Source: Caenibius sp. WL (GTDB lineage: Bacteria > Pseudomonadota > Alphaproteobacteria > Sphingomonadales > Sphingomonadaceae). From it: DNA of 64,000 nucleotides. Shown here piece by piece: positions 50,850 through 63,817 of the stretch. Position 1 is the stretch's first letter, and each line of letters starts with the position of its first letter. A model generated the notes under the pieces. The model had not been told where the DNA came from, did no database searches, and saw nothing but the letters and a program-made list of their open reading frames with translations. The stretch lies in contig NZ_CP081844.1 in NCBI RefSeq assembly GCF_019803445.1, positions 1,500,501-1,564,500 on the forward strand, read 5' to 3'. The position numbers were made by a program, and so were the translations under genes.

Positions 50850-51623
50850 TTACTTGGTCGTATAGCCGCCATTGACGAGGATGGTCTGTCCAGTCATCCA
50901 CCAGCCTTCCGAAACCATGAAGCGGATATAGGGGACAATGTTCTCAATGTCAGTCAGGCCCGTCTTCGAGAACTTCGAGAGTGCTGCTGCGGTCTTGTGG
51001 TAGGCAACGGCATCCTCGCCCTCGGCCGGATAAAAGAAGGGTGTGTCCATCGGGCCGGGGCCGATCGCGGTCACCGAGATGCCGCGCTCGCCGAATTCCT
51101 TCGATGCCGCCCGGGTAAAATGCTCGACCGGCGCCTTGGTGCCGGCATAGCTCGAATAGAAGGGCGTGAACGCTCCCAGCAGCGAGGTAACAAGCGTGCA
51201 GATCTTGCCGTTGTCGTTGAGATGCTTGCCAGCTTCCTTGATGAAGAAGAAGGCGGACTTGGCGTTGATCGCGCTCATCTCGTCATATTCGGCTTCCGAG
51301 ATTTCGGCCATCGGCTTCTTGAGCACCTTGCCGACTGTGTTGATGGCGATGTCGGGCTTGCCGATGGCGGCAACAGTGTCAGCGAAGAGCTTTTCCATTG
51401 CACCGGCTGTGGTGAGATCGGCCTGGAAGGCGACGACTTCTGCGCCCGCGACCTTGATGGCAGCGATCGTGGCGTCCGCATCCGCCTTCGTTGCCGCGCT
51501 GTTGTAGTGGATGGCGATCGCCTTCGCGCCATGTTCGGCGAGGTCGCGTGCGATCAGCCCGCCGAGATTCTTCGCACCACCGGCTATGATGACGGTTTTG
51601 CCCTTGATGCTGTGATTGGTCAT
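50850..51623 (-). CDS. SDR-family oxidoreductase with atypical cofactor motif
   Basis: A 257-residue short-chain dehydrogenase. Catalytic S147, Y159 and K163 are conserved, but the glycine motif is AGGAKNLGG (14-22), and NTVG (95-98) replaces the usual NNAG. It is close to FabI-like or 3-ketoacyl reductase outliers. Divergent from the LysR gene at 51763 (139 nt), its likely regulator. Confidence 0.9.
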   Translation of the reverse strand: MTNHSIKGKTVIIAGGAKNLGGLIARDLAEHGAKAIAIHYNSAATKADADATIAAIKVAGAEVVAFQADLTTAGAMEKLFADTVAAIGKPDIAINTVGKVLKKPMAEISEAEYDEMSAINAKSAFFFIKEAGKHLNDNGKICTLVTSLLGAFTPFYSSYAGTKAPVEHFTRAASKEFGERGISVTAIGPGPMDTPFFYPAEGEDAVAYHKTAAALSKFSKTGLTDIENIVPYIRFMVSEGWWMTGQTILVNGGYTTK

Positions 51624-51762
51624 GGGATGGCCTCCTTTGCCAATATGGCGACCACGTCAGCGGCCGCTTTCATGGCAAGAAAATACTGGCTAGCATTGAA
51701 CGATAAAGGCGATCATTTTGACATCACCTGTCAGAAAATCTGCATAATGAAGGCCTTTTCGC

Positions 51763-52662
51763 TTGGATCGTATTGATCTGTTTCGTATTTTCTCCCGCGT
51801 CGTCGAGTGCGCGAGCTTCACCCGCGCCGCCGATACGCTCGGCGTCCCACGCTCGTCGGTGTCGGCAGCGGTGCAGGAACTGGAGGGGCGCGTCGGCGCG
51901 CGGCTGCTCCATCGCACCACACGTCGTGTCTCACCGACCCAAGACGGCACAGCTTTCTATGAGCGTTGCCAGCGGCTCATCGCCGAGGTGGAGGACACGG
52001 AAAACCTGTTTCGGCAGACAGCAGCTCAACCATCCGGCAGATTGAAGATCGACGTTCCCGGTCGGATTGGGCGGCTTATCATTGCGCCAGCGCTTCCTGA
52101 ATTTCTCGACTGTTATCCTCAAATCGATGTCGATCTCGGTGTCACCGATCGCGCGGTGAATCTCGTGGAGGACAGTGTGGATTGTGTGTTGCGGGTCGGG
52201 CCTCTGAATGACTCTGGCCTGATAGCACGGCCGATCGGCAGGCTGGCGCTGGTCAATGTCGCAAGCCCCGCCTATCTGAAGCGTCATGGCATGCCTGAAA
52301 GTCCCAACGATCTTGGTGCCCACTGGGCTGTTAACTATGCCTCCCCTTCCAGTGGCCGGGTCGAGGAGTGGGAATGGATCGAGGATGGCAAACTACGCAC
52401 TACGCCGCTGCGGGGCCGCGTCACGGTCAACAGCGCCGAAGCATACATCGCCTGCTGTCTTGCAGGACTCGGCTTGATCCAGATTCCTGCTTACGATGTC
52501 AGACGGCATCTGGAAGCGGGAGAGTTGGCCGAGGTGATGGTGAACTATCGGGCAGAGCCCATGCCCATGACCCTGCTTTACCCGCATCGTCAGCATCTCT
52601 CGCAGCGACTGCAGGTCTTTGCCGATTGGCTCGAAGCATTGCTCAAGAGTCATGTTCTATGA
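51763..52662 (+). CDS. LysR-family transcriptional regulator, TTG start
   Basis: A 299-residue regulator. MDRIDLFRIFSRVVECASFT is the normal LysR start, and its first codon is TTG at 51763. Helix-turn-helix near 18-37; effector domain from about 88. Controls the divergent SDR by position. Confidence 0.92.
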   Translation: MDRIDLFRIFSRVVECASFTRAADTLGVPRSSVSAAVQELEGRVGARLLHRTTRRVSPTQDGTAFYERCQRLIAEVEDTENLFRQTAAQPSGRLKIDVPGRIGRLIIAPALPEFLDCYPQIDVDLGVTDRAVNLVEDSVDCVLRVGPLNDSGLIARPIGRLALVNVASPAYLKRHGMPESPNDLGAHWAVNYASPSSGRVEEWEWIEDGKLRTTPLRGRVTVNSAEAYIACCLAGLGLIQIPAYDVRRHLEAGELAEVMVNYRAEPMPMTLLYPHRQHLSQRLQVFADWLEALLKSHVL

Positions 52663-52855
52663 TTTCCGAGACTGCCTACGCCTGTCTCGTCTATACTAGT
52701 CGTTCATTATCTACCTTGAGTTCATTGATAGCAGTCATGCATTCAGATCGATTCAGGTCACGAAAGTGAACCTGTAGACAGCAGACCGTGCGCATGACCA
52801 TATGGATCTCGCACTCCCATTTATGGCCTCAGTTTATAAGCGTCAGCAATAAGCA

Positions 52856-53731
52856 TTAGGTGTTCCCAACCCGAACGGGAAGGCGCTTGGCCATATCATT
52901 CATAAACTGCCGTGTTGCTTGGTCCATCGGCACATCATCGCGAACCACAAGATGTAACCCTACTCCGAGCTCTTCGTGCAGCGGTGTCACCCGGTTTAAT
53001 CTGGGCTCTGAATCTGCAACGAAAGTCCACAGGAAGGCGGCGCCCAATCCTTGTTCCGCGGAGCCGCGCAAAGCCGACCAGTTATCTACATAAGCCGATA
53101 CGCGAATGGTGCGGCAAAAAATATCGTCCCACTGCTTCATCGCTCTTACTCGGGACGAACTGGTGCAGCGTACCCAGTCATATTCCTGCGGGGCGAGAGC
53201 GCGCCCTTTATGATCGAGATAAGTGGTCGATGCATATCCTGCCTGTCGTAGGGTAGCGATGCGGATGCCGCGCAGGTGCCTTGGCAGCGGATCGACCAGA
53301 CAAAGGCCCACTTCGCACTTGCGGGTGACAACATCGTCTTCCGGTTCATGGGATGTGCTGATGCGCAGCCGGATATGCGGATGCAGACGCGAAAAATCCG
53401 TTAGATCCTGCAAGAACTCAGAACCAAGCTCGGCTGCCACGGCAACACGAAGCTCGACTTGCTCTGCGTCCGCATTTGCCGAAAGTACCGCCTCAAGTTC
53501 TGTAACGAGGGCTTCGATCTTATCTGCAATGGTCAAGACCTGATGGCCGGCCGAAGTCGGATGATAGCCGTCCTCTCCTTGTTCAAATAACGGTATGCCC
53601 GCCTGATGCTCCAGTCGTTCAAGGCGGCGGCCGACAGTTGTGCGGTCCACACGCAGCCGTTTGGCCGCGGCGGTATAGTTGCCCGCACGAACAGTGGTGA
53701 GGAAGAAGCGTAGGTTATCCCATTCGATCAT
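52856..53731 (-). CDS. LysR-family transcriptional regulator
   Basis: A 291-residue regulator. MIEWDNLRFFLTTVRAGNYT opens the helix-turn-helix domain (YTAAAKRLRVDRTTVGRRLE near 19-38). Start set at 53731; upstream codons lie in the shared promoter. Divergent from the Rieske oxygenase gene with 133 nt between, and the likely activator of that operon. Confidence 0.93.
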   Translation of the reverse strand: MIEWDNLRFFLTTVRAGNYTAAAKRLRVDRTTVGRRLERLEHQAGIPLFEQGEDGYHPTSAGHQVLTIADKIEALVTELEAVLSANADAEQVELRVAVAAELGSEFLQDLTDFSRLHPHIRLRISTSHEPEDDVVTRKCEVGLCLVDPLPRHLRGIRIATLRQAGYASTTYLDHKGRALAPQEYDWVRCTSSSRVRAMKQWDDIFCRTIRVSAYVDNWSALRGSAEQGLGAAFLWTFVADSEPRLNRVTPLHEELGVGLHLVVRDDVPMDQATRQFMNDMAKRLPVRVGNT

Positions 53732-53766
53732 ACGCGAATATTTGCACGGCGAGAGGCGCAAGTCGC

Positions 53767-53780
53767 GTGCAAATTTGCAC
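53767..53780. promoter_or_regulatory. 14-bp palindrome in LysR/Rieske promoter
   Basis: GTGCAAATTTGCAC is a perfect palindrome. Half-sites TTTGCAC (53741-53747) and ATTTGCCC (53831-53838) flank it. This multi-site pattern suits a LysR tetramer on the divergent promoter. Confidence 0.6.
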
Positions 53781-53864
53781 CCTGTGATGTGCGGACTGCG
53801 ATCTTGTCTTGAGGCAGTCTGAGACACAAAATTTGCCCGAGATCCACGCAATTCGGAGGGGGCA

Positions 53865-54947
53865 ATGGCATCTACAGCAAACTATAAACTCGGCGAATTC
53901 GATTACCCACGTGGTTGGTTCATGATCGGCGATGCCGCACAAATGGGGCCTCAACCCGAAACGGTGCACTTCTTCGGCAAGGATATGGTCTTTTATCGCG
54001 GTGCAAGCGGTACGCCTTATCTAGTCGATGCCTATTGCCCGCACATGGGGGCTCATCTTGGTATCAACAGCACGTCCTATATCGTGCGGGACGGAGAGCA
54101 CGTCGACGGGGAATCCATTCGTTGCCCTTTCCACGGATGGCGGTTCGGGGCTGACGGGCGATGCAACGCTATTCCCTACTCACCCGATTTCATTCCCAAG
54201 GCCGCTCGTCTCACGACCTATCCCGTCATCGAACGGGCTGGTATTATCTGGATGTGGCATGATCCAGAAGGGCAGGAGCCGGATCAGGATCTGCCTGCCT
54301 TCGCCGCATGGGATCTGGAGGATGACGGTTGGGTGCGCTGGGTGATCGACGATTTTGGCACCCTGGCCCTCCATCCGATCGAAATCGTCGATAATATGGC
54401 TGATTTTGGCCACATGGGCCCGATCCATGGCAGTCTGGACAATCAGTACTTTGACAACGTTTTTGATGGCCACAAAGTCATTCAACGCTTCGATGCCGGG
54501 CACCGTACACTGACAGCTGATACGGGCGAAACTCTGTCACTCGACACTTGGTACGAAGGTCCCGCCATTCTTCAGGCTGACATGCGCGGTACGTTTCCAT
54601 CCCATATGTTGATCGCGCACACGCCTGTGGACGATGGCACGGTCCGAGTATGGCACGCGCTCATGGTGAAAATGCCGACAGCTGAAGCGGCACTAGCAGA
54701 TCTGCAAGTGGCACGTGGATACCAGAAGGCTAGTCACGATGCGTTAGCTCAAGACGTCGAGATCTGGGCAAACAAGCAAGCCTGCTTCAATCCCATGCAA
54801 ATCCCGGCTGACGGCCCTTATGGCAAGGTGCGGATATGGTATAGCCAGTTCTACAACCCGCGCAGCAAGACGACCGCGATTCAGCAGCGCGTGAACGGAC
54901 AAATTGTCACATATGGGGAAAAGAGAGTGGTGGAGCGCGCGGCATGA
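53865..54947 (+). CDS. Rieske-type ring-hydroxylating oxygenase, oxygenase subunit
   Basis: A 360-residue oxygenase. The [2Fe-2S] ligands are C58-x-H60 and C87-x2-H90 (CPHMGAHLG, CPFHGW). The catalytic iron site is in DNMADFGHMGPIHG with D180, H183 and H188. The length and the HMGPIHG pattern resemble 3-ketosteroid 9alpha-hydroxylase (KshA) and related single-subunit enzymes. No reductase or ferredoxin gene is adjacent. GGAGG precedes the ATG. The GST gene overlaps its stop by 4 nt. Confidence 0.93.
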   Translation: MASTANYKLGEFDYPRGWFMIGDAAQMGPQPETVHFFGKDMVFYRGASGTPYLVDAYCPHMGAHLGINSTSYIVRDGEHVDGESIRCPFHGWRFGADGRCNAIPYSPDFIPKAARLTTYPVIERAGIIWMWHDPEGQEPDQDLPAFAAWDLEDDGWVRWVIDDFGTLALHPIEIVDNMADFGHMGPIHGSLDNQYFDNVFDGHKVIQRFDAGHRTLTADTGETLSLDTWYEGPAILQADMRGTFPSHMLIAHTPVDDGTVRVWHALMVKMPTAEAALADLQVARGYQKASHDALAQDVEIWANKQACFNPMQIPADGPYGKVRIWYSQFYNPRSKTTAIQQRVNGQIVTYGEKRVVERAA

Positions 54948-55669
54948 CGGGCGCCTCCACCGTCAAATTATATGGCATGGCCAGCCCCAACGTTCGCAAG
55001 ATCACCATCATGCTTGCGGAGCTGAAACAGGCATACAGCTTTCATCACATCAATGTGTTTCGGGGTGAGCAGTTCACTCCGAAATTCCGCCAGCGCAATC
55101 CCAACGGCAAGGTTCCGGTGCTGGTGTACCAGACAGAGGAAAACGGGCCGGAAACCATCATCTTTGAATCTGCGGCAATCCTGATTCATTTGGCTGAACG
55201 GTTTGGCCGGTTTTTGCCGAACAGAGAGCCAATGCGATCAGCTGTGATGCAATGGCTGATGATACAGGCCTGCAACATTGGCCCATTGCTAGGCCAACTC
55301 AATCATTTCACCTTCGCTGCCCGGCAAGATAATGACTATGCTTTCGCCCGTTATCGCCGCGAAGCAGAGCGTCTCTATCGCCTGCTCGATGAACGGCTCG
55401 CACAGACTCGCTATCTTGGCGGGGACGAATACTCCATAGCCGATATCGCGACCTATCCGTGGAGCCTCTATCTGGAGCAGCATGGCTTTGCTCCAGATCA
55501 ATTCGCGCACCTGGGGGCATGGCGGCAGCAGGTCGCAAGGCGTCCCGGGGTCATTCAGGGCATGCAGGCAGTTGCAGAAAGCGAGGCTATAGATACGTTC
55601 GCATTTGAAACCGCCTCCCCGCGTGATCGCGATCGATTTTTCGGGATGACGACCCCTTTTGGAAAATAA
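54944..55669 (+). CDS. Glutathione S-transferase (Ure2p/YfcG-like)
   Basis: A 241-residue two-domain protein. Thioredoxin-fold N-terminus with KLYGMASPNVRKITIML and NPNGKVPVL and FESAAILIHLAERFG; helical C-terminus with YSIADIATYPW. SPN at the active site is typical of the nu/Ure2p group, which has disulfide-reductase or glutathione-peroxidase activity. Coupled to the Rieske gene, so it may handle an electrophilic oxygenation product. Confidence 0.92.
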   Translation: MTGASTVKLYGMASPNVRKITIMLAELKQAYSFHHINVFRGEQFTPKFRQRNPNGKVPVLVYQTEENGPETIIFESAAILIHLAERFGRFLPNREPMRSAVMQWLMIQACNIGPLLGQLNHFTFAARQDNDYAFARYRREAERLYRLLDERLAQTRYLGGDEYSIADIATYPWSLYLEQHGFAPDQFAHLGAWRQQVARRPGVIQGMQAVAESEAIDTFAFETASPRDRDRFFGMTTPFGK

Positions 55670-55950
55670 AGGCCAGCCTTCTCGATGCCGTCATCAGTTT
55701 GTTTTCTGTCACACGTGTTCGAACGGGCTCACGGCTTTTCCTCCAGCGCGGCGTTGATCATAGCGCGCCAGATACGAAAGCACAGATACAATCGACGTGA
55801 TCAATATCCTCGGCGGTTCGAGTTCCACTTCTTTGCCGAGCCTTACGCTTTGACTTCTAGGTGGCAGGCTGCGTCGCAGGTTTAGGTCGTTAGTGGACCG
55901 ATCGACGGATGGACGGAAATTGCCGAATGGTCGGCCTGCGGATCACAAAA

Positions 55951-55989
55951 TTACACTTCACGCCTAGGGTAGATCAGGCCAAAGTGTAA
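55951..55989. repeat. Inverted repeat TTACACTT / AAGTGTAA
   Basis: Arms at 55951-55958 and 55982-55989 are exact complements, with an inner GCCT/AGGC pair (55962-55965, 55976-55979). It can fold as a bulged hairpin. It may be a terminator of the convergent units, an operator or a mobile-element end. Confidence 0.4.
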
Positions 55990-56035
55990 CGTCTGGCATA
56001 GGCGTTCGGACCGTCCGCTTTGTTGGCGTGTCTGA

Positions 56036-56149
56036 TCAGGCAGGTTTTTGGTCGAAAACTTCAATAGCTGCCATGGCAATAGGTTCACCAGCCGTACGAA
56101 TAAGCCCGCCGACAAAGGCGGCGTTCGCGCGCTCCAGGATAGCGCGCCA
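56036..56149 (-). pseudogene. Possible fragment of a hotdog-fold thioesterase
   Basis: About 37 codons ending at a stop read AAFVGGLIRTAGEPIAMAAI, which looks like the C-terminal beta hairpin of PaaI-type thioesterases. No N-terminal part is found in frame. It lies just after the methyltransferase stop. Very uncertain; it may be chance. Confidence 0.2.
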
Positions 56150-56210
56150 TTTCGGCGCGGGCCGGCAAGTTTGAGTGCATGCCGCATGGGGTGCTGGCGC
56201 GTAATGCTCA

Positions 56211-56921
56211 TCAAGGGGCCATATCCTGGAACAGACGTTCGATAGCGATGCGAAAGGGCGCACGCCGGATAATGCGCGCCGCCTCTGGATTGATCCCGGC
56301 ATTGGCCAATACGGGAGGCCATTCTTCCGGTCGCATGGAACGCGCGATTGAGAGCTGCCCGTCCTCGCGCACAATGCGGTGTACTCCCATGACACGGGCC
56401 AGCAGAGGAAATCCGTAATAAGCGAAGGCATGGCGATGCAGGTCGCAGATCAGCCAACCGCTACGGGCGTTATTTTCCATATATTGCACGAAGCGCGTCA
56501 GTTGATCGTCTCTCATGTGATGGGCGACCTGGCTGCTCACGATGAAATCGAAGCGTTCGGGTTGGTCGGCGTAGTTGCCTGTGCGATAGTCCACGTTCAG
56601 GTTTGCCGGCGTCGCTGCACGGGCCAGTTCCTCGCTGGCTGGGTTGAGATCGACACCCACCAGTTTGGCGATGATATTCCGTCTCGCCGCCCATCTGGCT
56701 ATTGTGCGCAGCAGGTCGCCATAGCCGAAACCGACATCCAGCAGGCTGAACGACCGGCCATTGCCAAGCGCCCGTATAAGGAAGGCGGTTGTGGAATGCG
56801 CAGTGAATGTCCAACGGTTGACCAGCGCCAAGTCGCGCAAGACATTGCCATAAGTAAGCGCATCGAGATCAGGCGCATCCATTTGTTCGTCTTGACGCGA
56901 CCGGACTGACAGATTGGTCAC
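56211..56921 (-). CDS. Class I SAM-dependent methyltransferase
   Basis: A 236-residue methyltransferase. SAM motif I LLDVGFGYGDL is at 60-70, and the acidic residue after strand 2 is VGVDLNPASEE. FDFIVSSQVAHHM is motif IV. The GTG start at 56921 overlaps the cupredoxin stop by 4 nt (GTGA); an ATG at 56882 is an alternative. Methyltransferases of this type accompany type III PKS and FAD reductase genes in many bacteria, where they methylate the phenolic product. Confidence 0.9.
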   Translation of the reverse strand: MTNLSVRSRQDEQMDAPDLDALTYGNVLRDLALVNRWTFTAHSTTAFLIRALGNGRSFSLLDVGFGYGDLLRTIARWAARRNIIAKLVGVDLNPASEELARAATPANLNVDYRTGNYADQPERFDFIVSSQVAHHMRDDQLTRFVQYMENNARSGWLICDLHRHAFAYYGFPLLARVMGVHRIVREDGQLSIARSMRPEEWPPVLANAGINPEAARIIRRAPFRIAIERLFQDMAP

Positions 56922-57331
56922 TGCACCACGATCTCGCCCGTCATGCCAAAAGAGCTGTGCATGAAGTGGGTGCAGCGCAGCTTGTATGTTCCTGCATGCG
57001 GAGGGATGAAGCGCACATCGATGCTTTGCTTCGCACCGAGCGCGATTTTGCCACCCGAGATCTTCGCGCGATCTGAGTCCATGATCGTCGCCGCGGCAAA
57101 AAATTCCTTCGCTGCAAAATCGTGTCCGCCCGATGCCTGATTTGCCAGATGCAGATCATAAGCCTGCCCGTGCTTCAAGGTTATCGTGGATGGGGTGAAG
57201 CGAAAGTTGGAGAGCTGTACGTTGACCGTCTCGGCGCGGGACCAGTCGGGCAAGGCTGGCGGACTTTGCGAGGCCGCCTGTACGGGTGCAAGCATCAAAA
57301 AGCTCACAGAGATCATGTGGCGAACAATCAT
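56918..57331 (-). CDS. Secreted cupredoxin (blue copper protein)
   Basis: A 137-residue periplasmic protein with signal peptide at about 1-20. The single domain has the type 1 copper ligands H70 (SGGHDF), C120, H122 or H125, and M130 in the C-terminal loop RCTHFMHSSFGM. Such proteins carry one electron. It is translationally coupled to the methyltransferase and divergent from the PKS operon. Confidence 0.88.
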   Translation of the reverse strand: MIVRHMISVSFLMLAPVQAASQSPPALPDWSRAETVNVQLSNFRFTPSTITLKHGQAYDLHLANQASGGHDFAAKEFFAAATIMDSDRAKISGGKIALGAKQSIDVRFIPPHAGTYKLRCTHFMHSSFGMTGEIVVQ

Positions 57332-57350
57332 GTCCGACCTCCTGCAACCT

Positions 57351-57379
57351 CTTGGCCAGGAAAACCTTTCGTGGCCAAG
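57351..57379. promoter_or_regulatory. 8-bp inverted repeat in divergent promoter of PKS cluster
   Basis: CTTGGCCA (57351-57358) and TGGCCAAG (57372-57379) are perfect complements 13 bp apart. The element is 19 bp upstream of the cupredoxin start codon and 120 bp before the DUF2147 gene. It could be an operator or a 5'-leader hairpin. Confidence 0.5.
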
Positions 57380-57499
57380 GTCTGCAATATTATCTCATTG
57401 TTTGACCACGCATTAAAGCACTATTTGAGCGGCTCGCGGGGCTTGCCGGAAGCGGAGAAAAGGCGCAATCTTCATTGCATTTCGTGCGGGAGCGTCGCG

Positions 57500-57937
57500 A
57501 TGAACGGTATATGCATGGCGTCTGCCTGCGCACTCGCGATTTCCTGCTTCCCGCAAGTGGTTGCAGCGCGCACGAGCGTCTATGGGCGGTGGCTCACCGA
57601 TGACAGGGCCGGAGTGGTAGAAATCAATTCGTGTGGCAATGCGCTTTGTGGCAAATTGGTGGCCGTGCTCGACCCGAAGGCACCTGATCGCGACATCAAC
57701 AATCCCGATCCCGCGCGTCGCAGCCGTCCGCTGGTGGGTGTTGCCATCCTGACGGGACTTGTGCGCGACACCGATGGTTGGAGTCATGGCCAAGCCTATG
57801 ACCCGAAAGCAGGCCGCACCTACCGCGCTGCAATACGTCTGGTACGGGATGACAGGCTCGATGTGACCGGATGCATCCTCTTCATCTGCCGCACCCGGCA
57901 CTGGACCCGGTTCAAGGAGAATGCGGATGACCTATGA
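57500..57937 (+). CDS. DUF2147 secreted protein
   Basis: A 145-residue protein with an N-terminal signal peptide (about 1-22). The DUF2147 core reads VYGRWLTDDRAGVVEINSCGNALCGKLV, then GWSHGQAYDPKAGRTYRA and a C-terminal GCILFICRTRHWTR. Family function is unknown; the fold is lipocalin-like and may bind a lipid. It is first in the plus-strand operon, and its end overlaps the acyl-carrier-protein gene by 11 nt. Confidence 0.85.
   Translation: MNGICMASACALAISCFPQVVAARTSVYGRWLTDDRAGVVEINSCGNALCGKLVAVLDPKAPDRDINNPDPARRSRPLVGVAILTGLVRDTDGWSHGQAYDPKAGRTYRAAIRLVRDDRLDVTGCILFICRTRHWTRFKENADDL
57914..57919 (+). promoter_or_regulatory. Ribosome binding site deciding the ACP start
   Basis: AAGGAG lies 7 nt before the ATG at 57927 but only 1 nt before the in-frame ATG at 57921. 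The ACP therefore starts at 57927 (MTYEDIL). Confidence 0.75.
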
Positions 57938-58157
57938 AGATATTCTGGCCTTGGTGGCCGATGAGACAAGGCTTCCGGTCGAACGGCTCCAGCCGGATTC
58001 CACGCTCGCCACGCTCGATATTTCCTCAATAGATATGGTCAGCATGCTCTTCGAACTCGAAGATCGATATGGGATCGAACTTCAGCCCGAGGATCTCACG
58101 CGGGATATGACCTTGCGGCAACTGTTCGAGCGCATCGGCGTTGCCGTGCCGCAATGA
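57927..58157 (+). CDS. Acyl carrier protein
   Basis: A 76-residue acidic four-helix protein. The phosphopantetheine serine is S34 in LDISSIDMVSM, aligned with the DSL motif but with Ser before it instead of Asp. It carries acyl chains as thioesters. The stop overlaps the ketosynthase start by 4 nt, so ACP and ketosynthase are made together and form a dedicated pair. Confidence 0.9.
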   Translation: MTYEDILALVADETRLPVERLQPDSTLATLDISSIDMVSMLFELEDRYGIELQPEDLTRDMTLRQLFERIGVAVPQ

Positions 58158-59362
58158 CCAACCGTGTGCTCATTACCGGCATGGGCTGTGTCAGCGGGCT
58201 TGGTTACGGCGTCGATGTGAACTGGCAATCGGTGCGCGATGGGCGCGGCGCGATCCGCGCGTGCGATCCTTCCGGCATAGCGGCATGGGTTGCTGAGGAG
58301 GAAAAGGCAGCACCTCTGCTGAAGAGCGTGGATCCGGGCCAGCTCCGTCGGCTTGGTCGGCTTGACAGGCTTTCCGAATTCGCGCTCGAAGCCGGGCTGG
58401 AAGCCGTTTCGGATGCTGGACTGATGCGGCATCCGTCATTGGCACAACGAACCGCGATTATGCTCGGATGCGGCAGCGGCGGTAACCTCACTATCGAAAC
58501 CGCGTATGAGCGGCTTTTTGCGAGAGGCCAGCCGAAGGTCCATCCCCAGACAATACCCAGTTCGATGCTGGCGGCGCCCGCAGCGCATTTGTCCTTGCTG
58601 TTGGGGGTTCGCGGTCCTGCACTGACTTTGTCGGGCGCCTGCGCTTCATCGGCTCAGGCACTGGGCGAGGCCATGCATATGATCCGCGCCGGACGGGCAG
58701 ATGTCGTTATCGCGGGCGGGGCGGAGGCGTGTCTCACGCGCGGCTGCCTTGCCGGGTGGCAGTCGCTGGGTGTGCTGGCCCCCGATACCTGCCGCCCTTT
58801 CTCGCGTGATCGCCAGGGAATGGTTCTTGGCGAAGGGGCCGCCGTGCTGGTACTGGAGAGCGAAAGCCATGCTCTGGCCCGCGGTGCGCGCGTCCACGGC
58901 GAATTGGCTGGCTATGGTATGTCGAGCGATGCCACCCACATGACGGCACCCGATGTCGAGGGAATTGCTGCCGCGATCCGTGCCGCGCACGAAGATGCCA
59001 CCATTGCCTGCGATGCTCCGGCGCTCATATCGACGCACGGCACCGGCACAACGCTCAACGACATCGCCGAAACCGCCGCGATGCATCAAGTCTATGGTTC
59101 CGCACTGGCACGTCACCGGGTTATCGCGACAAAGTCCGCGCACGGGCATATGATCGGTGCGACCGGCGCAATGGAGTTTTTGCTCGGCTTGGTGGCTCTT
59201 TGCAGAGGCACCGCCCCGCCGGTGATCAACTATCTCGGCCCCGATCCCGAGTGTGATCTGCCTCTGGTACTCGAACCGCAAGTCTTCGAACCGGAAGTCC
59301 TGATCTCCAGCAGCTTCGCCTTTGGAGGGCTCAACGCAGTTCTCGTGGGACGGCGCGTATGA
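58154..59362 (+). CDS. Beta-ketoacyl-ACP synthase (FabF/KAS II type)
   Basis: A 402-residue condensing enzyme with the complete Cys-His-His site: C163 in SGACASS, H295 in STHGTGT and H332 in KSAHGHMIGATG. Thus it is a true condensing enzyme, not a chain-length factor. With the adjacent ACP it could make or elongate a 3-ketoacyl starter. No ketoreductase, dehydratase or malonyl transferase is next to it, so housekeeping enzymes must supply those steps. Stop overlaps the type III PKS start by 4 nt. Confidence 0.94.
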   Translation: MTNRVLITGMGCVSGLGYGVDVNWQSVRDGRGAIRACDPSGIAAWVAEEEKAAPLLKSVDPGQLRRLGRLDRLSEFALEAGLEAVSDAGLMRHPSLAQRTAIMLGCGSGGNLTIETAYERLFARGQPKVHPQTIPSSMLAAPAAHLSLLLGVRGPALTLSGACASSAQALGEAMHMIRAGRADVVIAGGAEACLTRGCLAGWQSLGVLAPDTCRPFSRDRQGMVLGEGAAVLVLESESHALARGARVHGELAGYGMSSDATHMTAPDVEGIAAAIRAAHEDATIACDAPALISTHGTGTTLNDIAETAAMHQVYGSALARHRVIATKSAHGHMIGATGAMEFLLGLVALCRGTAPPVINYLGPDPECDLPLVLEPQVFEPEVLISSSFAFGGLNAVLVGRRV

Positions 59363-60447
59363 CCTCCACCGTGGCCCACATCAACCGCATCGGAACCGCC
59401 AACCCGCCGTTTGAGGTGCATGACGCGTTCCTTCGTTTCGTATCTTCAGAACTGCCCGACAAACGAATGCTGTACCTGTTTGAACGCATGGCTGCACGTT
59501 CCGGGATCGAACGGCGCTATTCCTTCCTGGAGCCGATAACGCTGGAAGACGGCACGATCACGGATGCCGAAGGGTTTTATGGAAATGGCCCCTGGCCATC
59601 GACTGCGGCCCGGATGGCGCGCTACAAACGCGATGCCCCCCGCCTTGCGTTGAACGCCATTGCCGCGCTCGGCACGGATATCGACAAGACGAAAATCACC
59701 CACCTCATCGTCGCATCATGCACCGGCTTCATGGCTCCGGGGCTGGATCAGGTAATCGTGACCGAGGTAGGCCTCAATCCCGATGTGGAGCGTACCGTCG
59801 TCGGCTTCATGGGCTGCTACGCGGCGGTCAACTCGCTGCGACTGGCCCATCATATCATCCGCTCCGAGCCTGATGCGCGTGTGCTCGTGGTCACGCTCGA
59901 ACTGTGCAGTATCCATTTCCAGCGCAACCATGATCTTCCCAGTCTCCTCGCTATGCTCCTGTTTGGAGACGGCGCGGCGGCGGCGCTGGTCACGGCGGAA
60001 CCTCGCGGCATCGGCCTGCGCGACTTCCGGGCGATGACGATACCGGAAACCACCGACGCGATCACCTGGGCCATTCGCGATCAGGGTTTTGACATGCATC
60101 TTGGCGGTGAAGTGCCTGCGCGCATTTCCGCCGCGCTCGCCGAAGAGACTATGCGTAGCGACTGTCATGGCCTGCTACGCGGGCAATCGCCCGATGATTT
60201 CGCACTATGGGCGGTCCATGCAGGCGGGCGCACCGTGCTCGACGCGGTGCAACAAGGGTTAGGTCTTCCGCCTGACGCGCTTGCCACTTCGCGATCCGTC
60301 CTTCGCGACCGGGGCAATATGTCATCTGCGACGCTCATGTTCGTTCTTGCCAGCATGCTTGCAGGCCAGTCGCGGGGGCCGGGTCTGGCGCTGGCTTTTG
60401 GCCCTGGTATGGCGGCAGAAAGCTTCCGCTTCACCTTCGAGGGGTGA
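59359..60447 (+). CDS. Type III polyketide synthase (chalcone synthase-like)
   Basis: A 362-residue homodimeric synthase. Catalytic triad C153 (VVGFMGCYAA), H287 (WAVHAGGR) and N320 (DRGNMSSAT) is intact; the cyclisation-loop motif FGPGMAAE is at 347-354. Such enzymes extend an acyl-CoA or acyl-ACP starter with malonyl-CoA and release alkylpyrones, alkylresorcinols or chalcone-like rings. Placement after ACP and ketosynthase suggests a fatty-acyl starter handed from ACP. Confidence 0.95.
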   Translation: MTSTVAHINRIGTANPPFEVHDAFLRFVSSELPDKRMLYLFERMAARSGIERRYSFLEPITLEDGTITDAEGFYGNGPWPSTAARMARYKRDAPRLALNAIAALGTDIDKTKITHLIVASCTGFMAPGLDQVIVTEVGLNPDVERTVVGFMGCYAAVNSLRLAHHIIRSEPDARVLVVTLELCSIHFQRNHDLPSLLAMLLFGDGAAAALVTAEPRGIGLRDFRAMTIPETTDAITWAIRDQGFDMHLGGEVPARISAALAEETMRSDCHGLLRGQSPDDFALWAVHAGGRTVLDAVQQGLGLPPDALATSRSVLRDRGNMSSATLMFVLASMLAGQSRGPGLALAFGPGMAAESFRFTFEG

Positions 60448-60448
60448 C

Positions 60449-61549
60449 GTGGTCGACGCTCTCATTCTGGGTGGAGGCCTTGCCGGCAGCGCCGCCGCAT
60501 GCCTGATCGCACGCGGCGGAAAAAAGGTGAGCCTGTTGGAACGCGAGACCGGCCCCCATCACAAGGTCTGCGGCGAATTCCTGTCGATTGAGGCGATAAA
60601 CCATCTTCACCAGCTAGGTGTCGATCCCCTTGCGCTTGGCGCCGTACCGATTGGTCGGATCCGTCTCGTGCAAGGCCATTGCGAGATCGAAGCGGCACTG
60701 CCATTCACTGCATTAGGTCTCAGCCGTTACACGCTCGATGAAGCACTGATCAGAAAGGCTGAGATGAGCGGTGCGCACATCCAGCGCGGTGTGCGGGTGC
60801 TTGAACTCAACGGGCATATCGCACGCACGGCACAAGGGGAATACGAAGGCCGTCAGGTCCTGCTCGCAACCGGCAAGCTTCCGATCCGCGAACAGGGCGT
60901 GGCACTTCCCGGCCGCATCGAAGATGGCTTCATCGGTTTCAAAATGCATTACCGGCTAGCCCCGATTGCCGCAGAGCAACTGGCAGGCACCATTATGCTG
61001 GCGCTGTTTAATGGCGGCTATGCGGGGCTCCAGCTAGTTGGGCGGGGCCGCGCCAATCTCTGTCTTTTGCTGCGCCGCAAAACATTCTTGCGGCTTGGCG
61101 GCGAGTGGGGGGCGGTATGTGAATGGCTCGAGAGTAGCCCCATCGTGCAACGGATGCTGGCAAATGCCGAGCCGCTGTTCGAAAAACCGGTGGCAATCGC
61201 TAACCTGACCTACGGCCGACCGTCTCGCGATCACACCTCAGCGAAAGTGTTGAGCCTGGGTGACCGGTGGGCGATGACACCCTCGCTTACCGGCGATGGC
61301 ATGGCGATAGCCCTGCGCAGCGCTTTTCTGGCCGCGCACTGCGTCCTTTCGGGACATGATGCCCCGATTTATCACAACCTCCTTGCTTCCCAGACCCATC
61401 GGCAGATTGCTCGGGCAATGACCATTCAGAATGGTCTGGAACTGCCGGTGCTGCGGTTCGCCGCATATTACCTCGCGCGCCTCCACCCCAAAATTCTCAC
61501 CCGCGTCGTGGAAGCAACGCGCCTACCCTTTTGGCACAATACACTCTGA
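60449..61549 (+). CDS. FAD-dependent oxidoreductase, geranylgeranyl-reductase-like
   Basis: A 366-residue flavoprotein. The dinucleotide motif GGGLAGSAAA is at 8-17 and ends in the ribose-binding E31 region (LLERETG); VCGEFLSIEA and LSLGDRWAMTPSLTGDGMAIAL (split by the FAD ribityl loop) are typical. The GTG start at 60449 lies one nt after the PKS stop. This enzyme family accompanies type III PKS and methyltransferase genes in several phyla and probably hydroxylates or reduces the polyketide. Confidence 0.9.
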   Translation: MVDALILGGGLAGSAAACLIARGGKKVSLLERETGPHHKVCGEFLSIEAINHLHQLGVDPLALGAVPIGRIRLVQGHCEIEAALPFTALGLSRYTLDEALIRKAEMSGAHIQRGVRVLELNGHIARTAQGEYEGRQVLLATGKLPIREQGVALPGRIEDGFIGFKMHYRLAPIAAEQLAGTIMLALFNGGYAGLQLVGRGRANLCLLLRRKTFLRLGGEWGAVCEWLESSPIVQRMLANAEPLFEKPVAIANLTYGRPSRDHTSAKVLSLGDRWAMTPSLTGDGMAIALRSAFLAAHCVLSGHDAPIYHNLLASQTHRQIARAMTIQNGLELPVLRFAAYYLARLHPKILTRVVEATRLPFWHNTL

Positions 61550-61560
61550 TCGGAACCTCA

Positions 61561-61636
61561 TGGGAGCAGCTTAATCATAGGTATGATGGCATTCGCCGAC
61601 GAAGGCGACATTCAGACAGACTTTAAGCAGCTCCCA
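61561..61636. repeat. Inverted-repeat element, possible MITE or hairpin terminator
   Basis: TGGGAGCAGCTTAA (61561-61574) and its complement with one mismatch (61623-61636) enclose 48 bp. The short inner pairs ATCATA/TATGAT and CGCC/GGCG add structure. It lies 12 nt after the flavoprotein stop. It could terminate the biosynthetic operon or be a small non-autonomous mobile element. Confidence 0.45.
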
Positions 61637-61700
61637 AACCCGTCATCCATTCAGATTGCCTGACCTGTGCACTTGCCCTCCCATCAAAGCGGGGGCTTGT

Positions 61701-62999
61701 TTACTTGCGTTGCAGATCGATATCGCGTTGCCGTCGGTGGAGTTGTTCCTGCCGCTCGGCCGGCGATATTCGAGGGACTCCGGTCGGGAGTGCTTGCGAA
61801 AGCCGTTCGACATCCACCAATTTCACGATTGGAGCCTCTGAAGCTGTCAACGGCCTTTCCAACCCCTGCCAGCGTATGAACATCAAGCCGGTTCGATGAC
61901 CGACAGGGTCCAGCCAGTTTGCGACCCCCGGATCTCGCAAGGAGATAACGTACGTGTATGAGCCGTCAGGATTGGGCTTTGCCTGTTTGTCCGTAAGACT
62001 ACTGGTATGCCGGGCATATTCGAAGGGCACATACAGGTTGCTACCCAATTGAAAGCCGAGATACCGGGCATTCCCCTTATTTAATGTGATCACCAGTGCT
62101 TGGTCTTCGGCGAGAGAGAAATGTCCCCCGGTGTTGTACTGGCCCTGGAGTCCACCACTACCCGTTGATCGGGGGGTGGGTAATGTGTTTACCGGAATGT
62201 TGAAGTTGTATTTGTAGGGTGTCTCGATCCACAGTCTGAGTGCTTTCGCGAGACCGGCCGCAGCCCTTTCAGCAAGGACTGTGTCATCGGCCTCCGGCAG
62301 AGGTTGCCCATCGACCCTTTCGACTTGCAGGGACATTGGCGCCGCGCCCCAATCATCCATGGTGTCGCGGATCATCAGCAGGCTCGACCCTTCTACCAGC
62401 TGGATGTAGTTCGCCCGGCCATTGGCAGGTTCGCTGCCGAGTTCGATCGTAAATGCCCCATCGGGGGTGCTTTTGAGCATCTCGGACGAAAGAGTCGCAA
62501 AATTGCGGCCCAGGCGGCCACCTTCGAATGGAGCGGTATCCTTCAATTCAAACGACACGTGAGCAGCCCCACCCAAACGCCCGGTTACGCGATAACGATA
62601 GGCTGGTGAGACTGGGATGAAGCGATAGATATTGTCGGGATTGACCAAGCCATACTGGGCTCCGGGGAACCCATTATAAAGCACATGAGGGCGCGACGGG
62701 TCCGAATTGGCCACTACCAGCGCAACGCAATATGCCAGATCGCGAACATATGGTTCGATCTCGGTACGGTCCTTGTCCGTAAGATATCCGTGATTGGCTT
62801 TGAGATAGGCGATTGATTGCCCAATCTCTCTCTGCACGACATCGCTCGCAACCAGGCGTCGAGCTTTTGCCTGGAGCCGATCTTGCTCGGCAGTCAACAA
62901 TACGTGCGTATTCCGGCCTGGGGCTTCGGCCGCACTCACGAATGGCGAAAGAGTGCAGAGAAGAGCACCGGTCACGCTTGCAAACAGATAATTACGCAT
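61701..62999 (-). CDS. DUF1214/DUF1254-type secreted protein
   Basis: A 432-residue protein with signal peptide at about 1-24. The C-terminal DUF1214 domain is seen in ARYLGFQLGSNLYVPFEY, PNPDGSYTYVISLRDPG and HRTGLMFIRWQGL. Function unknown; members are widespread in sphingomonads and mycobacteria near catabolic genes. It converges on the biosynthetic operon and is 23 nt downstream of the SDR gene. Confidence 0.85.
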   Translation of the reverse strand: MRNYLFASVTGALLCTLSPFVSAAEAPGRNTHVLLTAEQDRLQAKARRLVASDVVQREIGQSIAYLKANHGYLTDKDRTEIEPYVRDLAYCVALVVANSDPSRPHVLYNGFPGAQYGLVNPDNIYRFIPVSPAYRYRVTGRLGGAAHVSFELKDTAPFEGGRLGRNFATLSSEMLKSTPDGAFTIELGSEPANGRANYIQLVEGSSLLMIRDTMDDWGAAPMSLQVERVDGQPLPEADDTVLAERAAAGLAKALRLWIETPYKYNFNIPVNTLPTPRSTGSGGLQGQYNTGGHFSLAEDQALVITLNKGNARYLGFQLGSNLYVPFEYARHTSSLTDKQAKPNPDGSYTYVISLRDPGVANWLDPVGHRTGLMFIRWQGLERPLTASEAPIVKLVDVERLSQALPTGVPRISPAERQEQLHRRQRDIDLQRK

Positions 63000-63022
63000 G
63001 ATTGTCTCCGACGACCAGAATG

Positions 63023-63817
63023 TTAGATGCGTTGAGAAGAGATGTTTCCACCATCTACAACCAGCTGTGCAGCAGTGATGTAGCTCGCCTCGGCAGAAAG
63101 AAGAAAACGGACGACGCGGCCAATTTCGTGAGGTTGACCAAGCCGTTCGAGCAATATTCGTTTTTCGAAGGAGTTCGCGGGAAGTCTATCAACCGCCGGC
63201 TTGGTCATGGGAGTCATGATCAAACCAGGGGAGAGCGAATTGATCCGGATGCCGTCGCGGGCCAATCGGTCTGCCAGTGAACGAACCAGGGAAACCATCC
63301 CGCCTTTCGCGGCAGTATAAACGGGATTCATGTGGTTCCCGAGAGTGGCGTTGATTGAAGCAATGGCCACCACTGCGGAATCGGGCTGCGCCTTTAAATC
63401 CGGTAAGATTGCTTGCACCAGGAATGCCAAAGAGCGCAGATGGATTGCCATGCCCTCGTCCCAGGATTGTAGCGTAAGCCCATCGAGCGAAGCTGTATCG
63501 ACAATGCCCGCCGCGTGGACCAGGCCACCTATATTGGGCAAGCTATTGCGTGTTTGCTCGACTCCCTCGATGATCCCATCCGCGCGCCGCAAATCGATTT
63601 CGATGGCAGTCGTGGGAACATTGTATCGGGAAGCGATGGATGTTGCGGCTTCTTGGGCGCGACCCCCGTCGATATCCCAGATTGCGACCGGGCGGCCGAC
63701 CGCCGCGAGGCATTCCGCGGACGCCAGCCCAATACCAGAAGCACCACCCGTGATGATGACGCCCGTACTCGGGGTGTCGAGGCAGACATTCGGATTCACG
63801 ATACTTACTCCGTTCAC
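63023..63817 (-). CDS. SDR-family oxidoreductase
   Basis: A 264-residue classical SDR. TGGASGIG at 23-30, acidic D48 after strand 2 (NAD preference), S154, Y167 and K171 (YTAAK). The start is the GTG at 63817. Located between a DUF1214 gene and a TonB receptor, all on the minus strand and likely one transcript. Confidence 0.9.
   Translation of the reverse strand: MNGVSIVNPNVCLDTPSTGVIITGGASGIGLASAECLAAVGRPVAIWDIDGGRAQEAATSIASRYNVPTTAIEIDLRRADGIIEGVEQTRNSLPNIGGLVHAAGIVDTASLDGLTLQSWDEGMAIHLRSLAFLVQAILPDLKAQPDSAVVAIASINATLGNHMNPVYTAAKGGMVSLVRSLADRLARDGIRINSLSPGLIMTPMTKPAVDRLPANSFEKRILLERLGQPHEIGRVVRFLLSAEASYITAAQLVVDGGNISSQRI

Follow-up and report, generated by a model that had tools for sequence, protein, structure and literature searches.

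A type III polyketide synthase cluster of Caenibius sp. WL with a NodF-NodE-like acyl carrier protein and ketosynthase pair

Here, we describe a gene cluster at positions 56211-61549 of a 64,000-nt stretch of the Caenibius sp. WL genome (the window, whose numbering is used throughout; the genome is 3.49 Mb in two contigs), in which a type III polyketide synthase (PKS) gene directly follows genes for a small acyl carrier protein (ACP) and a ketosynthase (KS). The five plus-strand genes are joined by overlaps of 11, 4 and 4 nt and then a 1-nt gap, and a coupled pair on the minus strand, encoding a cupredoxin and an S-adenosylmethionine (SAM)-dependent methyltransferase (MT), faces away from them (Table 1). 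All seven Pfam assignments exceed the curated cut-offs and match the gene names, and the catalytic residues of the KS and the PKS are kept in alignments. In genes, coordinates, junctions, the divergent coupled pair and intact active sites, the open reading frames (ORFs), Pfam scan and alignments agree with an earlier reading of this DNA, hereafter the original prediction. The best explanation is a specialised-lipid cluster, in which a common set of PKS, MT and flavoprotein has been joined by a NodF-NodE-like ACP-KS pair.

Table 1. Genes and intergenic region of the cluster, in window coordinates.
Feature	Position	Strand	Basis or remark
SAM-dependent methyltransferase (MT), 236 aa	56211-56921	-	Methyltransf_25 42.8 bits; 4-nt overlap with cupredoxin gene
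Cupredoxin (small blue copper protein), 137 aa	56918-57331	-	Cupredoxin_1 34.8, Copper-bind 30.9 bits
Divergent intergenic region between two transcription units, 168 nt	57332-57499	.	Gene coordinates
DUF2147 protein, apparent signal peptide, 145 aa	57500-57937	+	PF09917 113 bits
Acyl carrier protein (ACP), 76 aa	57927-58157 (alternative start 57921)	+	PF00550 PP-binding 45.4 bits
NodE/FabF-type ketosynthase (KS), 402 aa	58154-59362	+	ketoacyl-synt 154 bits
Type III PKS, 362 aa	59359-60447	+	Chal_sti_synt_N/C (PF00195 89.1, PF02797 76.0 bits; cut-offs 27)
Flavin adenine dinucleotide (FAD)-dependent oxidoreductase/monooxygenase, GTG start, 366 aa	60449-61549	+	FAD_binding_3 27.4 bits (cut-off 22)

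The grouping of these genes exceeds chance. We compared the cluster with loci drawn by PKS similarity, a set of 112 distinct PKS loci including the window (7 duplicates were dropped, and L050 was left out as having no PKS match). The genes for ACP, KS, PKS, FAD enzyme and MT occur together in all nine loci of the window's own branch, and no window ORF beyond 56179-61549 recurs in them as far as their contigs reach (E<1e-15 over half the ORF, from about 9 kb upstream of the PKS to the window end). The conserved unit is ACP-KS-PKS plus MT and FAD enzyme. Conservation of ACP, KS and PKS together in relatives, on which the original prediction had staked itself, was thus found, and its exact order of seven genes holds in a few Novosphingobium only.

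The PKS is assigned to type III by its Chal_sti_synt domains, its Cys-His-Asn triad and the thiolase-type fold of a predicted model (predicted local distance difference test, pLDDT, 89.8), for which the best structural match is 4b0n, a type III PKS (Z 43.8, 348 residues, root-mean-square deviation (rmsd) 2.3). Cys153, His287 and Asn320 are invariant in 107 of 115 aligned PKS rows; the other eight, distant or fragmentary, were set apart (Asn in seven, Ser in one). Identity as the dihydroxyphenylacetyl-coenzyme A (CoA) synthase DpgA was rejected, as NF042429 scores 125.9 bits, far below its cut-off of 425. Also rejected was a reading of product class from the place of chalcone synthase (CHS) G256, a position that we take to bear on it: the equivalent W237 is Trp in all 115 rows, but the alkylpyrone synthase PKS11 has Trp there too (ArsC was not among the alignments shown). 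The host genome has a single Chal_sti_synt_C match, and 190 of 397 genomes surveyed in the family have a PKS relative at E<=1e-50. Among the named loci, those nearest in PKS are mostly from Novosphingobium, with others from Croceicoccus and Sphingobium.

With the PKS gene followed by MT and FAD genes on the same strand in 82 of the 112 loci, a type III PKS with MT and FAD enzyme is an ordinary, common gene set. The clustered PKS, MT and FAD oxidoreductase are also the gene set of SrsABC/HidABC-like phenolic-lipid clusters, and SrsABC reportedly combines these three enzymes. The FAD protein here resembles the geranylgeranyl-reductase superfamily (TIGR02032, 76 bits, under the cut-off of 158.8). 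As the original prediction stated, the combination is known, from cyanobacterial HidABC and a planctomycete operon (PMC10896814) and from Acetobacteraceae clusters (PMC8776678); here and below, papers are cited for the sections that deal with the systems named. The planctomycete and Hid enzymes yield long-chain alkylresorcinols, the planctomycete type III PKSs of such operons giving pentadecyl- and heptadecylresorcinols (PMC10896814). Unlike our cluster, these systems have another gene order and are described, in the sections concerned, without an ACP or KS (PMC10896814). For the Acetobacteraceae clusters, which share the core trio, the product is stated to be unknown and the relevant section makes no mention of ACP or KS (PMC8776678); Lichenicoccus roseus, named there, has an ACP-KS pair before its PKS (L134).

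The ACP-KS pair in front is the unusual part of the cluster. In 25 of the 112 loci (counting the window and a contig-edge KS fragment in L082), the gene immediately before the PKS is a KS, and an ACP precedes it in 24 of these. The ACP carrier serine, in LDISSID, is conserved in 28 of 28 rows as judged by eye, and KS Cys163, His295, Lys327 and His332 are intact in 40 of 40 rows. The pair as a general partner of this PKS family was ruled out, the other 87 loci having no KS match anywhere (four of them have less than 1.3 kb of upstream DNA). In the family survey, a KS of at least 60% identity is found in 6 of 397 genomes, the window's own included, and the same six genomes have the best PKS scores of the survey; KS and PKS adjoin in five of them, and in G423 they are split between two contigs, with each gene close to a contig end or truncated. 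KS identities at E<=1e-60 fall into tiers of 60-66% (five genomes besides the window's own), 41-43% (four) and 34-37% (the FabF tier). Presence of the KS in 6 of 190 genomes with the PKS and 0 of 207 without it (Fisher p 0.012) counts for little as evidence, since the KS arose once within this family.

Within the PKS tree, a single clade of 25 rows (Shimodaira-Hasegawa-like approximate likelihood-ratio test, SH-aLRT, 98) holds the KS-bearing sphingomonad PKSs, and 23 of its rows have a KS. A second group (SH-aLRT 84), from Acetobacteraceae, Rhodospirillales and two metagenome-assembled genomes (MAGs) called Burkholderiaceae, shows ACP-KS-PKS-MT-FAD in five of eight rows. Across 21 loci, the pairwise distances of ACP, KS, PKS and FAD enzyme correlate at r 0.85-0.90, with none of 999 permutations as high, a correlation to which shared species history contributes; the values for the MT are lower (r 0.79-0.85). 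Two loci of the sphingomonad clade, L086 (9998-12914) and L091 (9873-12825), carry PKS-MT-FAD without ACP-KS and offer natural tests of the contribution of the KS. Alphaproteobacterial-type clusters also turn up in L121, L124 and L126, whose records bear the labels Burkholderiaceae (MAGs) and Actinobacteria; these are likely misbinned contigs.

Where might the pair have come from? The cluster's ACP-KS pair resembles rhizobial NodF-NodE rather than host FabF. The window KS is 41.6% identical to NodE over 406 aa and 33-35% identical to host-type FabF, and a housekeeping FabF identity was rejected on its TIGR03150 score (350.6 bits against an equivalog cut-off of 493.75) and its separate clade. 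In KS trees, the KSs of the sphingomonad clusters (support 100/100), those of the second group (96/99) and the sphingomonad FabFs (100/100) are separate clades, and KSs from other contexts, four of five adjoining an ACP as judged by eye, fall between them (FabF rows were sphingomonad only; the L082 fragment was omitted, as was L162, identical to L161, from the tree with NodE). In a plasmid collection, 461 records match the KS; among the best 40, five sphingomonad records (63-80%) come first, followed by Xanthomonas sacchari (43%), rhizobial records at about 41-42% and one Pseudorhodobacter, and among the matches listed one record has a neighbour annotated NodF. In two annotated rhizobial loci, L190 and L194, a LysR gene and nodABC are the neighbours of the ACP-KS pair. 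Since the FabF split is seen against sphingomonad FabFs only and solved FabF-type enzymes score well, "NodE-like" denotes architecture and similarity, with no proven clade. No nodABC or N-acyltransferase family was found among the 14 genes of 50850-63817 (Pfam scan; one gene matchless), so the pair may work like NodFE, yet this is not a Nod system.

Similar KS genes occur in other settings as well. Five further sphingomonad KS genes, about 41-43% identical to that of the window, lie in L184 (9366-10906), L185 (9472-10689), L186 (9320-10794), L187 (9303-10810) and L188 (9412-10931); by eye, all but L185 have an ACP gene beside the KS, and the neighbours are acyltransferase-like, glycan or exporter-like genes. 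These are possible NodFE-like cassettes with non-Nod partners. On the Xanthomonas sacchari plasmid (L193, 4698-6218), the ACP-KS pair adjoins GNAT, arginase and aminotransferase genes.

Because separate KS clades serve separate PKS groups with the same gene order, one PKS family appears to have recruited an ACP-KS pair twice, apparently independently, as far as the trees resolve it. The deep KS branches are weak (82-86%) and L186 and L188 are long, and a single ancient origin is a formal alternative.

In light of this architecture, what might the pair do? We propose, with a probability of roughly 0.6, that the PKS is supplied by a NodFE-like module, which assembles an acyl or beta-ketoacyl chain for it on a dedicated ACP, and that MT and FAD enzyme tailor the resulting lipid. 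The small ACP would be activated by a host phosphopantetheinyl transferase (the genome has a single match to the family PF01648). The KS would condense a primed acyl chain with malonyl-ACP, the product then perhaps being reduced by host FabG, FabZ and FabI or else kept unreduced or unsaturated. From the ACP, the acyl (or beta-ketoacyl) chain would pass directly to the PKS cysteine, and the PKS would extend it with malonyl-CoA units and cyclise it to an alkylresorcinol- or alkylpyrone-type ring, which the FAD enzyme may oxidise and the MT methylate. We infer the direct transfer from linkage, gene order, overlap and the two apparent origins, and from the conserved block containing neither an acyltransferase nor an acyl ligase (Pfam scan and nine-locus comparison). 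The dedicated ACP/KS pair of the original prediction gains support, as an inference, from its linkage to the PKS, co-divergence and two apparent joinings.

Several observations weigh against this proposal. There is no KS in L086 and L091 inside the KS-bearing clade, nor in three of the eight second-group rows (one of these, L129, has only 1.5 kb upstream); with KS-less members in both groups, the PKS can evidently function without the KS. The PKS is absent from all three same-genus genomes searched, and solved FabF-type enzymes score up to 261 bits against the KS (phmmer). Residues K55, R58 and K62 of CHS are presumably contacts to the CoA phosphates; the putative contacts equivalent to R58 and K62 are kept in the PKS, so that acyl-CoA could still be used. 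No PKS residue change is common to both KS-bearing groups as wholes in the 115-row alignment, and sequence signs of ACP docking were rejected: five positions (62, 68, 75, 79 and 189) split sphingomonad KS-bearing from KS-less PKSs, and the second KS-bearing group as a whole shares none of them.

These points bear on the alternative that the PKS uses ordinary acyl-CoA or AcpP-bound chains, as relatives lacking a KS have to, and that ACP-KS, merely co-regulated, makes a second fatty chain, for example for ester attachment to the product or for a membrane lipid. KS-less loci, both across the 112 and within the KS-bearing clade, would fit it, as would the basic PKS residues R43 and R47, kept with or without a KS, and the similar ACP-KS pairs elsewhere that by eye adjoin acyltransferase-like or export genes. 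However, the conserved block has no acyltransferase or acyl ligase, KS and PKS overlap by 4 nt in the window, and the gene order is identical in two KS lineages, and we consider this explanation unlikely.

A further option is that the KS yields an unreduced beta-ketoacyl-ACP, which the PKS would take as its starter (germicidin logic) or join as a second partner (CsyB-like), giving a pyrone or diketide-type head group. The Pfam scan found no ketoreductase or dehydratase in the cluster, but this is not telling, as NodFE likewise are not known to have private reductases and use those of the host. A beta-ketoacyl-ACP starter is reported for Gcs (title of reference 74 in PMC6274091). Structures matching the PKS model include CsyB (Z 43.0), but the best 50 span only Z 42.1-43.8 and the ranking does not discriminate; we find this option rather doubtful.

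The two secreted proteins of the cluster look like accessory handling proteins. A predicted model of the DUF2147 protein (pLDDT 79.3, from 7 sequences) matches the Helicobacter pylori lipocalin HP1028 (Foldseek E 4e-8; Z 13.2, rmsd 2.8, 119 residues), the next structural entry having Z 8.0. The protein thus models as a secreted lipocalin-like protein (calycin/lipocalin barrel), a fold that alone shows no ligand, and the model suggests lipid binding outside the cytoplasm. Its gene is present in 11 of the 112 loci including the window, all KS-bearing, either before the ACP or after the FAD gene; it is broken in L071 (8275-8504) and degenerate in L074 (8213-8557).

The cupredoxin has an apparent Sec signal peptide and, by eye, a complete type 1 copper site with His-Cys-His-Met ligands (motifs GGHD and CTHFMHSSFGM). 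Matches occur in 8 of the 112 PKS loci. The ligands are retained in L060, L071 and L080, whose motifs show small changes, as well as in L084 and the second L072 copy, both likely lipoproteins; L073 (7792-8198) and L087 (8072-8464) have a broken gene, and the divergent L072 copy is a fragment. These damaged DUF2147 and cupredoxin genes sit in otherwise recognisable clusters (L071, L074, L073 and L087). At E<=1e-14 the cupredoxin family is found in 65 of 397 genomes, 48 of which also have the PKS at E<=1e-50, as against 142 of the 332 others (Fisher p 5e-6; hand-counted, with kinship uncorrected). Among the 48, the two genes are within 10 kb in three (the window's own, G046 and G164), within 25 kb in 11, and farther apart or on different contigs in 37. 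A repeated spacing of about 19-24 kb in eight genomes of three genera (G144, G187, G238, G252, G270, G344, G397 and G416) hints at an older linkage. The cupredoxin was therefore rejected as a core member on its few loci and loose spacing, with some linkage only, and is an optional extra, loosely linked to the PKS family. In this lineage, the lipocalin-like protein and the cupredoxin may transport the finished lipid, or act on it, in the periplasm. The original prediction's periplasmic quinone-like carrier, with electron transfer through copper, found no support beyond the suggestion itself, and an electron-transfer role of the cupredoxin with the product is a guess.

The MT has a history of its own. 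In the window's branch it is divergent and upstream, with no MT match downstream, and in the MT tree it groups with the MTs of L060 and L133 (SH-aLRT 95), which belong to clusters of another PKS clade; the L060 cupredoxin is 59% identical to that of the window. Judging by the tree placement and this cupredoxin, the MT probably came from another type III PKS cluster, perhaps together with the cupredoxin. L060 (9339-18124) holds an other-clade type III PKS, a convergent MT, a cupredoxin, by eye a sigma/anti-sigma-like pair, and a distant FAD gene, and is probably related to the source from which the window's MT came. The same gene set without an annotated cupredoxin is found on pLA3 of Novosphingobium pentaromativorans US6-1 (JI59_RS20370-RS20395), and ACP-KS-PKS-MT-FAD on pKN1 of Sphingobium yanoikuyae.

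Might the cluster then be a loose neighbourhood, in which the pathway consists of PKS, MT and FAD enzyme alone, with ACP-KS, DUF2147 and cupredoxin as passengers? The separate history of the MT, the patchy and sometimes broken DUF2147 and cupredoxin genes, and the distance of the cupredoxin from the PKS in most genomes with both would fit such a view. We nevertheless hold it to be very improbable, as the genes overlap, the limits of the block are identical in nine loci, ACP, KS, PKS and FAD enzyme co-diverge, and DUF2147 recurs in two positions, exclusively in KS-bearing loci.

How does the proposed ACP-fed PKS compare with known systems? Germicidin synthase Gcs is said to draw on primary fatty-acid synthesis with no private ACP-KS pair, and in this differs from the cluster here. 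The likeness is that Gcs, a type III PKS, can take acyl-ACP (PMC6274091). ACP-bound starters are also taken by ArsB/C (from ArsA) and SCO7671 (PMC6274091), and by CylI, fed by CylB/D/H in the cylindrocyclophane pathway (PMC8086630), which bears out the original prediction's statement that fatty-acyl starters can be passed to type III PKSs. As in our cluster, a dedicated fatty-acid-building unit beside the type III PKSs supplies ACP-bound chains in ArsABCD of Azotobacter vinelandii (PMC6274091, PMC3098273), but that supplier is a large type I fatty acid synthase, whereas here there are a discrete ACP and a single KS, plus an MT and a FAD enzyme. In the Cyl system, a free-standing ACP and PKS machinery likewise build the chain and a type III PKS finishes the resorcinol, but type I PKSs extend the chain and an AMP-binding enzyme, a halogenase and a dimerising enzyme are present (PMC8086630). 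Like our cluster, rhizobial NodF-NodE have adjoining ACP and KS genes, and there the pair produces a specialised acyl chain on an ACP of its own (PMC5080398, PMC9542644); nodE deletion abolishes polyunsaturated and >C18 acyl chains (PMC5080398, where the NodE and NodF labels are swapped); unlike here, where the partner is a type III PKS, NodF-NodE serve the NodA acyltransferase next to nodABC.

Sphingomonad type III PKS clusters figure solely as antiSMASH entries or gene lists in the relevant sections of PMC9716278, PMC9723273, PMC13292080 and PMC9281055. No recognisable description of an ACP-KS-type III PKS operon was found in the literature searched, which had subscription papers mostly outside its scope, and no characterised cluster matched among the matches listed, in keeping with the statement in the original prediction that it knew of no described pathway with this exact gene set.

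Around the cluster, at 53865-55669, a KshA-type Rieske oxygenase gene and a gene for a glutathione S-transferase overlap, and two LysR regulators lie upstream; conservation of these Rieske and transferase genes with the cluster was not seen in the nine loci. On the other side, at 61701-62999 on the minus strand, lies a gene for a 432-aa protein that appears to carry a signal peptide and matches no Pfam family at E<=1e-5. A sigma-70-like match is absent from the divergent intergenic region, and a promoter and terminator scan of 56000-61800 was at shuffle level.

ACP-fed type III PKSs are already known (ArsB/C, CylI and Gcs), and public annotation of US6-1 already lists the genes; what is new here is the architecture, together with the reading we give it. 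The usual view is that a type III PKS accepts any CoA thioester available in the cell. If our proposal is true, a five-gene operon with its own ACP and KS would form a natural type II-to-type III relay of very small size, offering a tractable case for studying ACP docking on a type III PKS and the setting of a side chain by one KS. The cluster is carried by publicly sequenced strains, N. pentaromativorans US6-1, S. yanoikuyae CC4533 and N. resinovorum, and is thus directly testable. More speculatively, and as a long shot, NodFE-like ACP-KS pairs might be portable starter cassettes, joined independently at least twice to this alphaproteobacterial PKS family and handing an unsaturated or beta-keto chain from the ACP directly to the PKS, with a Novosphingobium product that is a redox-active lipid, carried by a dedicated lipocalin and oxidised or reduced in the periplasm by a dedicated cupredoxin. 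The findings suggest that the NodFE logic, known from the symbiosis of legumes, works as a general cassette that can take several partners.

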